A program made the translations under genes and the position numbers. Source: an uncultured Actinomycetes bacterium (GTDB lineage: Bacteria > Actinomycetota > Actinomycetes > S36-B12). Taken from it: a stretch of DNA of 52,260 nt. Under the pieces are notes generated by a model. That model had not been told where the DNA came from. It saw nothing but the letters and a program-made list of their open reading frames with translations, and searched no databases. The stretch is from assembly GCA_903832025.1 (NCBI GenBank), contig CAIKZY010000076.1, positions 1 to 52,260 on the forward strand. Direction: 5' to 3'. Within the stretch, counting starts at the first letter, position 1. Each line of letters opens with the position of its first letter. Positions 45,669 through 51,970 of this stretch are shown here, piece by piece.

Positions 45669-46457
45669 TTATCGCCCATCCCACGCAGTGGTCTGTGAGG
45701 GATCTGAGGCACCCCATCCTTGACTTGGGCTCTGCATCCACGCCGAACCGTTCCAGAACACGGTCCGATTGCACACGGAGCCGCCGGTGGCAGCCACCGC
45801 CCACTGCGCCCACGACGGGCTCCAGCCGGGTCGACAGGACTGGCTGGCCGAGCGGCCGTAGGACTGAAGCCACGCGGGCATTTGTGCATCGGGGGCACTT
45901 GCCGGGGCACCGTCCCACACGATCGCGATCGTGGTGCCGGCCGGCGGTCCATTGTTGACTTCGAAGCTGGCGATCTGATCACCGGGCGTCAAGGGAACAC
46001 CAGCATTGATCGGGGAGTTCGCCCCGGCCGGCGGAATCCCCAGGAGCACGGCCGTGACTGACGATGCCGGGCCAGGCCCAGGTGTTCCGTACCAGTCGTT
46101 TGGGCCGAAGGAGCCGTAACTGCCCCAGGTCGACCAGCTTCCGGTGGACGAAATCGGTTGACCGAGATAGCCGATGCCGTCTGCGGCATCGTGCGGGCCA
46201 ACGATGTTGGCCATGTCGCTATCGCCCCCTCCGCCAGGAGTCAGGCAGTCGCCGCTGAACGTAAACGTGATGGCGTCTCCGATGTTCGCCGTCACGTGAA
46301 CCGTGGCAGCGTCGCAAGCCATGGATACCGAGACATTCCCAGCTTGGGCCGGGCTGGCAACCAGCATGGCCCCGCTCACAGTCAGGACTGATGCCAGTGC
46401 CACCACTGCACTTCGGCGAGTGCGCATCCATTGGGGTAATGCAGTCAACCTGGTCAT
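45669..46457 (-). CDS. Secreted protein with C-terminal Cys/Trp (PSWAQW..GGSVCN) domain
   Basis: Signal-like AVVALASVLTVSGAMLVASPAQA; SQSCRPGWSPSWAQWAVAATGGSVCNR. Confidence 0.65.
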   Translation of the reverse strand: MTRLTALPQWMRTRRSAVVALASVLTVSGAMLVASPAQAGNVSVSMACDAATVHVTANIGDAITFTFSGDCLTPGGGGDSDMANIVGPHDAADGIGYLGQPISSTGSWSTWGSYGSFGPNDWYGTPGPGPASSVTAVLLGIPPAGANSPINAGVPLTPGDQIASFEVNNGPPAGTTIAIVWDGAPASAPDAQMPAWLQSYGRSASQSCRPGWSPSWAQWAVAATGGSVCNRTVFWNGSAWMQSPSQGWGASDPSQTTAWDGR

Positions 46458-46915
46458 GCGTGCCTCCGCGGTTCGGCGAACACCCAAGTCTACCGACGTT
46501 CAGGACACATGGGGAGTGCATGCGGCACTCGTGGTCACGCTCCTGGGTGGGGCAGTACCCGTCGATCCGACGCATGCCAGCGGCAGTGGGGGATGCCGCA
46601 ACTGCGAACATGTCACCTCCGGCGCTCGGCCGGGATATCTAGGTGCGAATCGCGGCTAGGCCTGCACCCACGGAGAACACACCGGGTGCTCATGGATGCT
46701 CGGCGGTTTCGCCGCGCACATGTGGGACAAAGTACGGAGCAGGCGGTCCGCATTCGCTGAAGTCTCAAGTAGTCCTTCAACAATCTCTCAAGGGCAGGTT
46801 CAGGCTTCTTAGGGGGGAAACGAATTACAACCTTGTGACTCAGGTGTCTCATTGGCCACATGTGCCACTTTCGTGTCAAAGTGCGCGGGTGCACATGGGG
46901 CCAAGAGCACCACGA

Positions 46916-48340
46916 ATGCGTCGACGCATATATATGCGTCGACGTTCACGTCGTGCCCTCGCCACCCTGGCCGCGGGCATCGGTGCACTGCTCGTGGTCA
47001 GTGCGTCCATCATCGCCCCTGGCGCGGTGGCCGCGAACAGCCCACAGGACGATCCGGCACCGGCCTTGCCGCAGGTTGGCTCCACGACGACATTGGCTCA
47101 GGCCAGCAGTAGTTCGTTCCAGGCAATTGGCACGGCCCTGGCCTATGACTCAGCAAATGGGGACGGGCCAATGCAGCCGGGAACAGCGCGCATCGTGTCC
47201 TTGTCGGGTCTGCCCACCAATGCCCATAGTGCATTGATTCTCATGACGGCCCACGACGCATCAGCCGCCGGCGAGGTGACAGTGTCGCGCACGCCAACGG
47301 GTCGTGCTGTGGCCAAATTCGATTTCATTGGCCAGGCAACGAAGTCTGCGGTAATGCTCGTGCCGGTGTCTGAGGGCCACGTATTTCTCACAGACTCCAA
47401 GGCATCAAGTGTCAATCTGAAAGTGAATCTCCTGGGCTTCGGGCTCAGTGCTGCACCTCCGATGGCCCAGGGGCGACCGGCGGTCGCGTTGGCCCATGGG
47501 ATGTGGAAGGCAGGCACCGAGCAAACCGTGGCGCTGGCTCATCAGTACGGCACCCCGGGCGCGAAGAAACTGGTCGCTGCGTTGCTGAAGATCACCACGC
47601 ATCAGGCTGCAGCGCCCGGTGGCGTTCAGGTCTACCCGCTGGGCAGCACACCGCCCGGTCCGGTGGCACCCATTGTCAGTGGCCAGGAAACCTCGACAAT
47701 CGCCCTGGTGCCCACCGGGAAGGCCGGCCAGCTCAACATCAGCTCAACGGTCGATGCTCGCGTTCGCGTCGACCTGATTGGATACGTCGCCGACTCCGAG
47801 GCCCCGGCCACCAGTGCGGTGCCCGCACCGGCTGCCTCGGGCAGCGCTCAGCCGCCCGGTACGTCCCAAGCTCCGGCCACAGGGATGCAGCCACTGGCTC
47901 AGGTGGAGCAGGAAACCGGCGCGACCGGGCCTGCCGCAGTGGCGGTGCAATACGCCCTGTCCAAGATTGGTGATCGATACGTGGCGAGCACTGCCGGACC
48001 GGATACGTTCGACTGCTCCGGCTTGACGATGGCAGCCTGGGCAGCGGCCGGTGTCAAGCTGACCCACTTGAGTTACACCCAGTACGACCAGACGCAGCAC
48101 ATCGCCCTGTCAGCCATTCAACCTGGCGACTTGCTGTTCTACTTCGGCGGCGGCGTGCACCACGTGACGATGTATATCGGACATGGGCTGATGGCCAATG
48201 CCGCCAACCACATCTCAGGCGTGGTCATCACCGCGGTCTCGGAGGGTTGGTACATGGAGCACCTCGCCGGTGTTGGCCATGTCGATCCGTCCAACCCGGC
48301 TCCGAGTCCGTCACCGGCTGTGACCGCGTCGACCAAGTAG
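46916..48340 (+). CDS. NlpC/P60 family cell-wall hydrolase
   Basis: C-terminus ALSKIGDRYVASTAGPDTFDCSGLTMAAWAAAG...LQPGDLLFYF-like (IQPGDLLFYFGGGVHHVTMYIG). Confidence 0.88.
   Translation: MRRRIYMRRRSRRALATLAAGIGALLVVSASIIAPGAVAANSPQDDPAPALPQVGSTTTLAQASSSSFQAIGTALAYDSANGDGPMQPGTARIVSLSGLPTNAHSALILMTAHDASAAGEVTVSRTPTGRAVAKFDFIGQATKSAVMLVPVSEGHVFLTDSKASSVNLKVNLLGFGLSAAPPMAQGRPAVALAHGMWKAGTEQTVALAHQYGTPGAKKLVAALLKITTHQAAAPGGVQVYPLGSTPPGPVAPIVSGQETSTIALVPTGKAGQLNISSTVDARVRVDLIGYVADSEAPATSAVPAPAASGSAQPPGTSQAPATGMQPLAQVEQETGATGPAAVAVQYALSKIGDRYVASTAGPDTFDCSGLTMAAWAAAGVKLTHLSYTQYDQTQHIALSAIQPGDLLFYFGGGVHHVTMYIGHGLMANAANHISGVVITAVSEGWYMEHLAGVGHVDPSNPAPSPSPAVTASTK
46919..46944. repeat. Perfect 26-bp palindrome at the NlpC/P60 start codon
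   Basis: cgtcgacgcatatatatgcgtcgacg is its own reverse complement; possible ATG starts at 46916 and 46934. Confidence 0.95.
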
Positions 48341-48673
48341 GAGCGATCCTGTCCTGAGCAGCGGGATTTCCTGATCGACACCGTGCCACTGCTTGGCCAA
48401 CGCCTGGTGCTGCATCGTTGGAACTCTCGTGGCCTGGGCGTTGGTGCACGTCACCGTGCGTGCTACCGATCCTGCGATCGTGAATCCATGACTGCATATC
48501 TCCTGCTGAGTATTACGGTCGCGCCTGCCACGCGACTCGTGAACTCCTGTGCTCGTGTCCGGGCATGCTGGCGGCGCAATCTGCTGCGTCAACTCGTGCG
48601 TGAGTGAAGCTGGCCTGGGCCACCAGCAGTGCAAGGCAGCGCCCCAGAGCCGCAGCACCCAAGCGCCAAGTCG

Positions 48674-49333
48674 CTAGTCGCGCAGGAGTTTGCGGTTGGC
48701 GATCAGGCCGAGGATGAAGGCGAGGATGACCGGGCAGAGCACGAGGATCCAACCCGCGCTGTCACCGACGCCTGCAATGTTGGCGGGATCGTCAGGGCAC
48801 ATGCCCGCCTGGCATTCGGGAATCACCGAGATCGCCACGATGAGCAAGTCAATGAAGGTCCAGAAGACGGTGGTGAACGCCAAGATGCGCATCCGGGGGG
48901 ATGCGTCGCGAATGCCACGGTCGTGGGCCAAGAGCGGGGTCTCCCACAGGAGCAGTACTGCGCAGCCGACGATCGCGATGATGAAGGTGATCAGCGCCCA
49001 CGTGTAGAGGTGGTATCCGGCGAATGCGGGGCCGTAGCCCGGGTCGCTCGGGGTATAGATATGCAGCAGCACCTGGCGGATGCTTCCTGCTGAGCCGGCG
49101 CACGCTGCCAGGATGCTCAGCGCGTAATGCCTGGCGCGAATTCCCCACCACAGGTTCATTGCCGGACCGATTGCCAGTCCGAACATTCCTGATCGTTGCA
49201 CCAGGCAGAGCGGGCACGGCTGTTCACCAACGCCGAACTGCAGGTGCAACGACCCGGCTAGCACTCCAAGCAAGGCAAGGAGCGCCAGGATGTTGAGCAG
49301 GCGTGAAATCGTGACGGAACGTTCGGTATTCAT
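48674..49333 (-). CDS. DsbB-like disulfide bond formation protein
   Basis: FGVGEQPCPLCLVQRSGMFGLAIGPAMN; four TM helices; second Cys pair CQAGMC. Confidence 0.75.
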   Translation of the reverse strand: MNTERSVTISRLLNILALLALLGVLAGSLHLQFGVGEQPCPLCLVQRSGMFGLAIGPAMNLWWGIRARHYALSILAACAGSAGSIRQVLLHIYTPSDPGYGPAFAGYHLYTWALITFIIAIVGCAVLLLWETPLLAHDRGIRDASPRMRILAFTTVFWTFIDLLIVAISVIPECQAGMCPDDPANIAGVGDSAGWILVLCPVILAFILGLIANRKLLRD

Positions 49334-49340
49334 CGCAGCC

Positions 49341-49490
49341 CTAGAAGTTCAGTGGGAGGGCCGAGGATATGTGCAACTTCAGCAGGACCAGCGTCCACAC
49401 CAACGTCACAATGACCAGTGCCGGCGTCCAACGCCACTTGAGGAAGATCCCGAGGAATGCGCCGATCCACAGCAAGAACATGGAGAACAT
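49341..49490 (-). CDS. Small membrane protein upstream of dsbB-like gene
   Basis: Direct translation: MFSMFLLWIGAFLGIFLKWRWTPALVIVTLVWTLVLLKLHISSALPLNF*. Confidence 0.5.
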   Translation of the reverse strand: MFSMFLLWIGAFLGIFLKWRWTPALVIVTLVWTLVLLKLHISSALPLNF

Positions 49491-50291
49491 CACGGGCAGC
49501 ACTGTAGTGGGGATTCATCGGTACTCGCGGCCGAACCACGGCGGAAATGACTGAGTGGCTCCCCGCACGTACCTGCGCTTGCCGCGAGCCCGAGCAATGT
49601 TCGGGCAGAGGCCGCCGACTCGCCGGTTCAGATCACAACGTGTCAACGCGTTCCGAATCAGGCGGTTCCCTCGACGGCGTTGGCATGTCCTGGAAGGTAT
49701 TCGCCAGCAGGCTCTGAGTCGCTAAGTGTTCCACGTACACCGGAACTACGGCGGGAGCCGCACGCTTCGTGCAGGACATCTTCAGTTCAGGAGCGGTCAC
49801 CCGTGCGACCACGGGCGCCAACAGCCAGATGACCGCCTTCAGATCGACCGGTGCGCGCTGCTGGCTTCCGGGGAAATGTGTGTTTCGCCACCACGGCGGG
49901 TTCTAGGACGGCCAGGTGAACGTGACTGTTTGGCCGGACCTGCTGACCCGTGGTGGAGAATCTGCCTCAGGGTCGACCACTCCCAGGCGAACGAGTAACT
50001 CGTACACGCCAATCTCGAGCGCAGCAGCGAGCGCTTCCAGTGCATCCACACGCGGACTTTGCAGGTGCCGAAAGATCCTCGACAGGTTTCCCTTGTCGGA
50101 CCCGCAACGGCTCGGCAGCCAAGCAGCGCGGATCGGTGCCGCTTCGGGCTAGCACGGTGGGCCCTGAAGCCAACTGTGAGCGATCAATATTTCGCGCGCC
50201 ACGTGGTAGCGGTTCGCCAATCTCGCACGTCCTGGGCACGAGCGGGACTACGGTGAGGAACATCGGGTGTGCAAACGACAGGAGCGTGAGC

Positions 50292-50636
50292 GTGAATCGT
50301 GCAGTGCTAGCAGGGACGGCCGTCTCGGCAGTTGCCTTAGCCGCGGTAGCGGGTGTCCTGTTCGCCGGCTCGGCGCAAGCAAGCCCTGCCGGTCCACCCG
50401 GATACAACCTGGTGCAGGTGCAGTCCTACGTGCGCAGCGGACCGACGGCTTCGTGTGATGCACCGCCGATGGTGTTGAGTACCTGGCAGTCGGGCTGGGC
50501 CGATCCGAGCAATCCCATTTCCGGTCCGACCTGGCATCCGTCCTATGAGCAGTGGCCGAATGGCAATACCGGGGGATGGACCTGCATCCGCGCCATCACC
50601 TGGGGGTCATTCGCCGCACTCGACATTCTCAATTAG
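50292..50636 (+). CDS. Secreted Cys/Trp-domain protein, paralogue 1
   Basis: GTG start, NRAVLAGTAVSAVALAAVAGVLFAGSAQA signal, VQSYVRSGPTASC...HPSYEQWPNGNTGGWTC. Confidence 0.7.
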   Translation: MNRAVLAGTAVSAVALAAVAGVLFAGSAQASPAGPPGYNLVQVQSYVRSGPTASCDAPPMVLSTWQSGWADPSNPISGPTWHPSYEQWPNGNTGGWTCIRAITWGSFAALDILN

Positions 50637-50672
50637 GCGCAGTGAGCAGGCGTGATTGACGAGGGAGACACA

Positions 50673-51020
50673 ATGAGCCGGACAAGTACGAGCCTGCTGG
50701 TATCCGGGGTGCTAGCTGTCGCCGCCAGTGCCGTCGTGACGGCAATGCCGGCCAGCGCCGGCAGATTGCCCGACAGTTCGCCAGGAACCGCGCTTGTGCA
50801 GGTGCAGTCCTACGTGCGCAGCGGACCGACGGCTCCGTGTGATGCACCGCCGATGGTGTTGAGTACCTGGCGGTCGGGCTGGGCCGATCCGAGCAATCCC
50901 ATTTCCGGTCCGACCTGGCATCCGTCGTATGAGCAGTGGCCCAACGGCAACACCGGGGGATGGACCTGCATCCGCGCTATCACCTGGGGCAGTTTTGCGA
51001 ATCTGATGCCGGCGGGCTAG
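50673..51020 (+). CDS. Secreted Cys/Trp-domain protein, paralogue 2
   Basis: MSRTSTSLLVSGVLAVAASAVVTAMPASA signal, then a near-identical domain to paralogue 1. Confidence 0.7.
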   Translation: MSRTSTSLLVSGVLAVAASAVVTAMPASAGRLPDSSPGTALVQVQSYVRSGPTAPCDAPPMVLSTWRSGWADPSNPISGPTWHPSYEQWPNGNTGGWTCIRAITWGSFANLMPAG

Positions 51021-51190
51021 CGCTGTGCCGCATCTTGAACGGCGATGCGCCATGCAGTCCAGGACAGGAAGCGACCTGCGCCGAAGGCGACTGGGTTAGC
51101 AGGGCGCTTTTGCCTGCACCACTGAATCCCACGGGCCCTCAAGGGATCTCGGAACGCTGTTGGGGATCACCGGTCGGTTGCGTACCTGGC

Positions 51191-51970
51191 TTACAGCGTT
51201 GATTGCTTGTTGCAGACGAACCCGCCGGCGCCATTGTTGGGCCACTGCGCCCAGCTGGGGTCATACCCACTGGGGCATGGGGCATCGACGGCAGCGCGCC
51301 CCACCGATTGCAACCAGGGCGTGCCCGTCGGGATCGCAGTTGAATCGGTGACCGGCACATCGGGGTAGTAGCGGTAGGTCTGCTTGTTGCAGACGAACCC
51401 GCCGGCGCCATTGTTGGGCCACTGCGCCCAACTGGGTTGCCAGCCGTCAGGGCATGTGCTTGCAGTGCTGTCACGCCCGATGGACTGGTACCAGATCGTC
51501 TTATCGGGATCTCCATCGGCAATGGTGAACGACATCACGCCGCCGACTTCCGTAGGCGTTGGCGCGGGATCGCCGTTTTGATAGACGGCAGAAAATGCCG
51601 CCATCACGTAATTACCGGGGGGTAAGCGAGTCGATCCGGTCAGGCCATACACCGGGGTGTCGGTGGTGATAACGGTGCTGGTCGAACCATCGGCAAGGAA
51701 GTCGAAGTACAGGCCATTTTGGTTGTTGCAGTTATCCGCCTGATCGAGGGAGCAGATGATCAGGACATCACCGACGGGAAAGCCAACGTTGTTGACGGTC
51801 TGACTGGTCGCGGTTCCAGACCAGGACACGGTCACGGCGGTGGTGCCAGATCCCGAGATCGTGATCGGTGCCGCAATGCACCCAGAGAGCCCGAATACCA
51901 GCGATGCGGACACCGCTGCCAGCAGTCCAGCCTTGGCCCAGGAGCGCCGCTTCCTCAGAAACCCGAGCAT
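51191..51970 (-). CDS. Lipoprotein-like secreted protein with two Cys/Trp domains
   Basis: LVFGLSGCIA lipobox; two copies of C-P-x-G-x-x-PSWAQWPNNGAGGFVCNKQ. Confidence 0.75.
   Translation of the reverse strand: MLGFLRKRRSWAKAGLLAAVSASLVFGLSGCIAAPITISGSGTTAVTVSWSGTATSQTVNNVGFPVGDVLIICSLDQADNCNNQNGLYFDFLADGSTSTVITTDTPVYGLTGSTRLPPGNYVMAAFSAVYQNGDPAPTPTEVGGVMSFTIADGDPDKTIWYQSIGRDSTASTCPDGWQPSWAQWPNNGAGGFVCNKQTYRYYPDVPVTDSTAIPTGTPWLQSVGRAAVDAPCPSGYDPSWAQWPNNGAGGFVCNKQSTL

Follow-up and report, generated by a model that had tools for sequence, protein, structure and literature searches.

The 52,260 b of DNA considered here (the window) make up the whole of contig C76 in the 2.21 Mb, 98% complete draft genome G000, and raise the question of what a short cysteine- and tryptophan-containing domain does on several exported proteins. 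The initial annotation described an unrecognised domain of this kind in five copies on four exported proteins, and we located all five in four open reading frames (ORFs). This module is an undescribed protein family in every library searched, is confined among bacteria to a single family (which we take to be GTDB S36-B12, a freshwater group), and has been shuffled among unrelated exported proteins under purifying selection. We give an approximately even chance to its being a lineage-specific, exchangeable unit for non-covalent retention of proteins at the cell envelope.

The module in the window and in its genome

The module is approximately 45-70 amino acids long with one cysteine pair, and follows the pattern Q[SAQ]-x2-[GAV]R...C...(insert)...[GW]-W-x-x-SWAQW-x-N-x-G-x-GG-x-[VT]-C-x-[RK], in which both cysteines, the tryptophan of QW, and the GG doublet are invariant. 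Four subtypes are set apart by the insert between the first cysteine and the SWAQW core: it is short in subtype A, reads WVNWPGIA.. in B, and spans ~22-29 residues in C, which often ends CTRxITWA after the GG; subtype D is marked by LNWGG.. and GGPVCTRTL. Comparing the profile of subtype A with the B, C and D profiles, and that of D with the C profile, gives E-values of 1e-11 to 1e-20, and the subtypes are thus homologous members of one family.

Each of the four carriers in the window has an export signal, and the five modules have E-values of 2e-21 to 1e-15 in a single-genome profile search, so that they are not chance matches. The first carrier (ORF at 51191-51970, minus strand) is a lipoprotein with lipobox LSGC, a beta-rich N-terminal part, and two tandem C-terminal modules: a short subtype A copy at 51374-51496 (IWYQSIGRDSTASTCPDGWQPSWAQWPNNGAGGFVCNKQ; E 2.1e-21) and a second subtype A copy at 51194-51319 (PWLQSVGRAAVDAPCPSGYDPSWAQWPNNGAGGFVCNKQ; E 4.4e-21), both on the minus strand. 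Homologues of its scaffold are found in L004, L031, L034, L056 and L118, and a match of this protein to DUF726 was rejected because it is below cut-off and covers the signal-peptide region only. The second carrier (45669-46427, minus strand, from the ORF and a choice of start) has the signal MRTRRSAVVALASVLTVSGAMLVASPAQA and a C-terminal subtype A module at 45732-45875 (minus strand; AWLQSYGRSASQSCRPGWSPSWAQWAVAATGGSVCNRTVFWNGSAWMQ; E 9.1e-20) with AVAAT replacing the usual PNxGT.

The remaining two carriers are small exported proteins on the plus strand. In one, at 50292-50636 (start GTG at 50286 or 50292, in a frame open from 49950), the mature part is approximately one subtype C module, at 50415-50612 (plus strand; E 1.1e-15); the other, at 50673-51020 (ATG at 50673, in a frame open from the GTG at 50652), is its tandem paralogue with 86% DNA identity across the last 231 b, and contains the subtype C copy at 50799-50996 (plus strand; E 1.2e-16). 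The alignment in the initial annotation placed these copies correctly but abbreviated the two on the plus strand, which have ~25 extra residues between the first cysteine and HPSYEQW.

The family is larger than first noted. A search of G000 with one copy returned approximately 30 places, and the suggested hidden Markov model, built as a profile of 42 sequences (A1), gives 31 matches, 29 of them at E < 1e-7. At least three G000 copies are disrupted by a stop or frameshift, indicating that the family turns over; the interrupted genes (L028 on C6, L019 on C170, and L018 on C85, with an in-frame TAG or a frameshift) are either pseudogenes or draft errors.

No database gives the module an identity, and the described Pfam domain that would have explained it was not found. 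The 42 module sequences match no Pfam or NCBIfam family at a useful E-value, PHROGs gives no match for two window carriers or for phage copies, and the core string has no match in the literature searched. A search of PDB sequences with hmmsearch gives a best E of 0.24 over a short chance stretch; Foldseek returns nothing better than E 0.6 overall, and against PDB folds the two models reach best E-values of 1.0 and 3.6, these structural comparisons having little power on 53-76 residues. The chromodomain, Fab and P2X matches encountered in PDB and Foldseek were dismissed as chance (E 0.24 or worse).

The AlphaFold check proposed earlier was run on two subtypes and predicts a small three-stranded beta fold with a pLDDT of ~80. 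For the subtype A module at 45732-45875 (29 sequences; pLDDT 81.8, pTM 0.58) strands are predicted at residues 3-10, 21-26 and 33-43, with a short fourth at 48-50, and for the subtype C module at 50790-51017 (pLDDT 79.3, pTM 0.66) three strands are predicted at 3-9, 44-48 and 57-65, in places corresponding to those of subtype A; the two models are not fully independent because their alignments have most rows in common. With one exception, every complete carrier copy retains both cysteines, a pattern that fits the proposed disulfide microdomain, and judging from this conservation a single disulfide probably joins them. The exception is L007:1872-2534, the only full-length module in which the second cysteine is replaced by phenylalanine and a lone cysteine remains.

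Shuffling, selection and lineage restriction

The module is associated with many different proteins. We distinguish 43 scaffold groups, without detectable mutual similarity, in the 69 carriers that have 60 or more residues in addition to the module, and presence on many unrelated exported proteins is a property of non-covalent wall-binding modules. Export signals are present in most full-length carriers. Modules of subtypes A, B and D are C-terminal, with no more than ~39 residues beyond the last cysteine, and complete subtype C copies directly follow the signal peptide. Recognisable scaffolds include YVTN/lactonase propellers, GLUG, Lcl_C, pentapeptide, delta-60/DUF5122, TIG, C-type lectin, Gly-rich and PMP repeat proteins, and choice_anch_Q (beta-helix) proteins; no catalytic domain, including glycoside hydrolases, was found in the carriers scanned, and these scaffolds are non-catalytic display or adhesin-type modules. 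In one kind of propeller scaffold within the family the tail is the module, Fn3, an InlB-B-repeat-like segment (by eye, L183), or absent, and the module thus occupies an optional slot. The family choice_anch_Q is named for its variable anchors, and in L126:3177-5234, a choice_anch_Q beta-helix protein scoring over cut-off, the module is in the anchor position.

Modules may be very similar on scaffolds that are unrelated. In pairs such as L003/L005 and L035/L093, 84-89% of module residues are identical and the module DNA is 70-84% identical, whereas the flanking 60 b on either side are 20-37% identical, the level of unrelated sequences. The ratio of non-synonymous to synonymous substitution rates (dN/dS) of the module in such pairs is ~0.04-0.24, a rough value (NG86, 44 codons) with several pairs synonymously saturated. 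Because the shared DNA ends at the module borders and dN/dS is low, it follows that the module moved from gene to gene by copying and has since stayed constant on differing proteins; what it interacts with thus looks constant, whereas the cargo changes.

Its distribution is narrow. Searching 166 genomes of the order identified the module in 51, all of them among the 85 from the window's own family, compared with none of the 81 from other families; a genome with the module has from 1 to ~30 copies, and the window's genus has the most (18-30). Sampling the class (395 genomes) and the phylum (297) gave no credible match outside the family, and the phylum-level matches L089 and L090 were rejected as weak, the L089 frame resembling a non-coding shadow frame. 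A pattern scan of 84,980 species genomes yielded 18 loci, nearly all in records titled as actinobacterial metagenome-assembled genomes, one of them labelled Candidatus Nanopelagicales. Another of these loci, on a metagenomic bin titled Bifidobacterium breve (L117; CAMDKJ010000076.1), contains a carrier typical of this actinobacterial family, and the name on that record is probably wrong.

Phage copies and gene neighbourhood

Contigs in IMG/VR place the module in two unrelated phage groups, without any subtype C or D copies there; named phage and plasmid collections gave no match. One group (L128/L164 and L165, from one metagenome) has primase, terminase, portal and protease genes, and encodes the module in small proteins; the copy at L165:3421-3633 starts with a hydrophobic N-terminal segment, and that of L128/L164 has none. 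The other consists of three near-identical contigs (L166-L168), in which a 173-residue ORF (L167:5896-6417) joins the module to a hydrophobic N-terminal segment (signal or membrane) and to an extension, and adjoins structural genes and an actinophage-type capsid. As a guide to the host, this capsid offers one weak match (G014) in the 85 family genomes and ~29% identity to those of Streptomyces phages. Assignment of the ORF beside the L167 copy as a lysin was not confirmed.

In G000 the carriers are solitary or in tandem pairs amid unrelated housekeeping-type genes, and no dedicated operon or secretion gene lies by them in 20 stretches around the matches, for which genes were called with a simple script and neighbours were not systematically annotated. 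Two genes of the window, neither with an established link to the modules, look like ordinary neighbours. One encodes an NlpC/P60 wall hydrolase without a module (46934-48340, plus strand; PF00877, E 2.8e-18), whose N-terminal part of more than 300 residues has no Pfam match. The other encodes a DsbB-like membrane protein (48674-49333, minus strand; PF02600, E 2.1e-10), and its proximity had been noted together with the proposed disulfide. A special link is not supported: DsbB, present in 36 of the 59 relatives, does not track the module. Many genomes have it without the module, including genomes of families f3, f4 and f7 of the order, and six (G007, G008, G011, G025, G029 and G033) have the module and no DsbB match, VKOR and other oxidases not having been searched for. 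The DsbB genes of G001 and G002 are distant from any carrier or on a different contig. The DsbB link is thus rejected on co-occurrence and position. Dependence on sortase is also rejected, since sortase does not track the module: none was found in G000 with its 30 copies, nor in the module-bearing G004, G010, G013, G016, G017, G025, G029 and G033, drafts that may miss genes and in which exosortase was not searched for.

A candidate unit for envelope retention

Retention at the cell envelope fits best with a constant module, changing cargo, attachment at either protein end, lineage restriction, export, and uptake by phages. We propose that the host protein would be exported by a Sec or lipoprotein signal, and that the module would fold outside the membrane into its small three-stranded beta unit, probably with one disulfide. 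A conserved face rich in W, R and Q could then bind a component of the cell's own envelope non-covalently, which might be a glycan or polymer of the wall or else a receptor fixed at the surface, with display of the fused beta-propeller, GLUG, pentapeptide, delta-60, TIG, C-type-lectin, Gly-rich or beta-helix scaffold. Since binding would need only the folded module, it could work C-terminally (A, B and D), after the signal peptide (C), in tandem, or alone, and be copied from one protein to another unrelated one; the failure to find sortase in G000 suggests that none is necessary for retention.

Several observations count against retention. The phage copy of L128/L164 (L128:2979-3167) has no recognisable signal peptide, and 34 of the 85 family genomes have no module copy at all, which means that the module is not essential. 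Foldseek shows no likeness to a known binding domain, no wall-hydrolase domain was seen in any carrier, unlike many wall-binding families, and for lipoprotein carriers that are already membrane-anchored retention would be redundant.

As a kind of device the module resembles known surface-retention modules. In monoderm bacteria the CWB2 (PF04122), SLH (PF00395) and WXL (PF13731) domains and further modules that bind the wall non-covalently (review: PMC5817068) are likewise short units on many unrelated exported proteins per genome and need no sortase, but the module differs in having no sequence match to them, one cysteine pair and a W-rich core, in often being present as a single copy, and in its restriction to one actinobacterial family. 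A host-derived CWB2-like wall-binding domain also occurs in the Clostridioides phage endolysin CD16/50L (PMC9045149), a parallel that the phage copies of the module would fit.

The chief rival, which we consider unlikely, is a carbohydrate-binding module for an external substrate such as algal or plant polysaccharide, chitin or particles, with the carriers acting as adhesins or substrate-capture proteins and the module as their adhesive end. Small carbohydrate-binding modules are aromatic-rich, disulfide-stabilised small beta domains, and the conserved Trp-rich motif, likely single disulfide and small predicted beta fold of the module are similar; C-type lectin, TIG, GLUG and Lcl_C scaffolds are among the carriers, lipoprotein carriers with two distal copies resemble membrane-tethered binders, and the relatives come from environmental metagenomes. 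However, modules for common external glycans usually span many phyla, and in favour of retention the restriction of this one to a single bacterial family points to a self target and not to a common environmental glycan; in addition, the module has no Pfam, PDB or Foldseek match, is fused to no glycoside hydrolase or other catalytic domain in the scanned carriers, and its retention by phages would be unexplained. It is rather improbable that the modules instead pair with one another, so that many different proteins assemble into a surface layer or matrix. The many paralogues per genome and tandem gene pairs are compatible with such homotypic assembly, and one-module stand-alone proteins and double-module lipoproteins could be linkers, but there is no sign of a single dominant array protein, three copies are disrupted, and the single copies in many genomes could assemble little.

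The module might also serve as a tag recognised by dedicated machinery for secretion or processing, used like those of T9SS, PEP-CTERM, MYXO-CTERM or sortase. This would account for a short region of homology that a single lineage has, mostly C-terminally, on dozens of exported proteins unrelated to each other, some with choice-of-anchor-type scaffolds. The C-terminal sorting tags LPXTG/sortase, PEP-CTERM/exosortase, GlyGly-CTERM/rhombosortase and MYXO-CTERM/myxosortase are well described (PMC11980579, PMC3237569, PMC1569441), but the module is predicted to fold as a domain and is no tripartite tail, has no hydrophobic segment within or after it and so lacks their hydrophobic helix plus basic tail, and as subtype C begins the mature protein; with no sortase found in G000 and no dedicated gene adjoining the carriers, we give this explanation little credence. 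The NCBIfam choice-of-anchor names (choice_anch_Q, NF041518; choice_anch_I was below cut-off) denote the scaffold, whereas the module, which takes the C-terminal anchor slot of L126, is a candidate for the anchor itself. Very improbable, finally, is a conflict or antimicrobial element, with small secreted modules that target other cells and phage versions that serve as decoys or exclusion factors. Stand-alone small secreted tandem copies (window positions 50292-51020, and L021), phage copies, some with a membrane segment, and birth and death with broken copies are consistent with it, but most copies are on large structural scaffolds, selection on the module is purifying rather than diversifying, and no immunity-like neighbours were noticed in the stretches examined.

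For envelope retention, the wider implications concern bacteria whose cell surface is little studied, as is that of free-living freshwater actinobacteria of this kind. The module marks approximately 30 proteins per genome that are now without a common annotation, would merit a new Pfam-type entry, and offers a short protein probe for a putative envelope ligand. Within a single bacterial family it exemplifies a strongly selected module that has spread among proteins of unrelated kinds, and it connects these bacteria with phages bearing the same module. Tentatively, we suggest that it may represent a hitherto unknown display system of one freshwater actinobacterial family, in which the module, copied onto unrelated proteins by the dozen, would recognise a lineage-specific envelope component; two or more phage groups may have acquired it to target the same component during infection.

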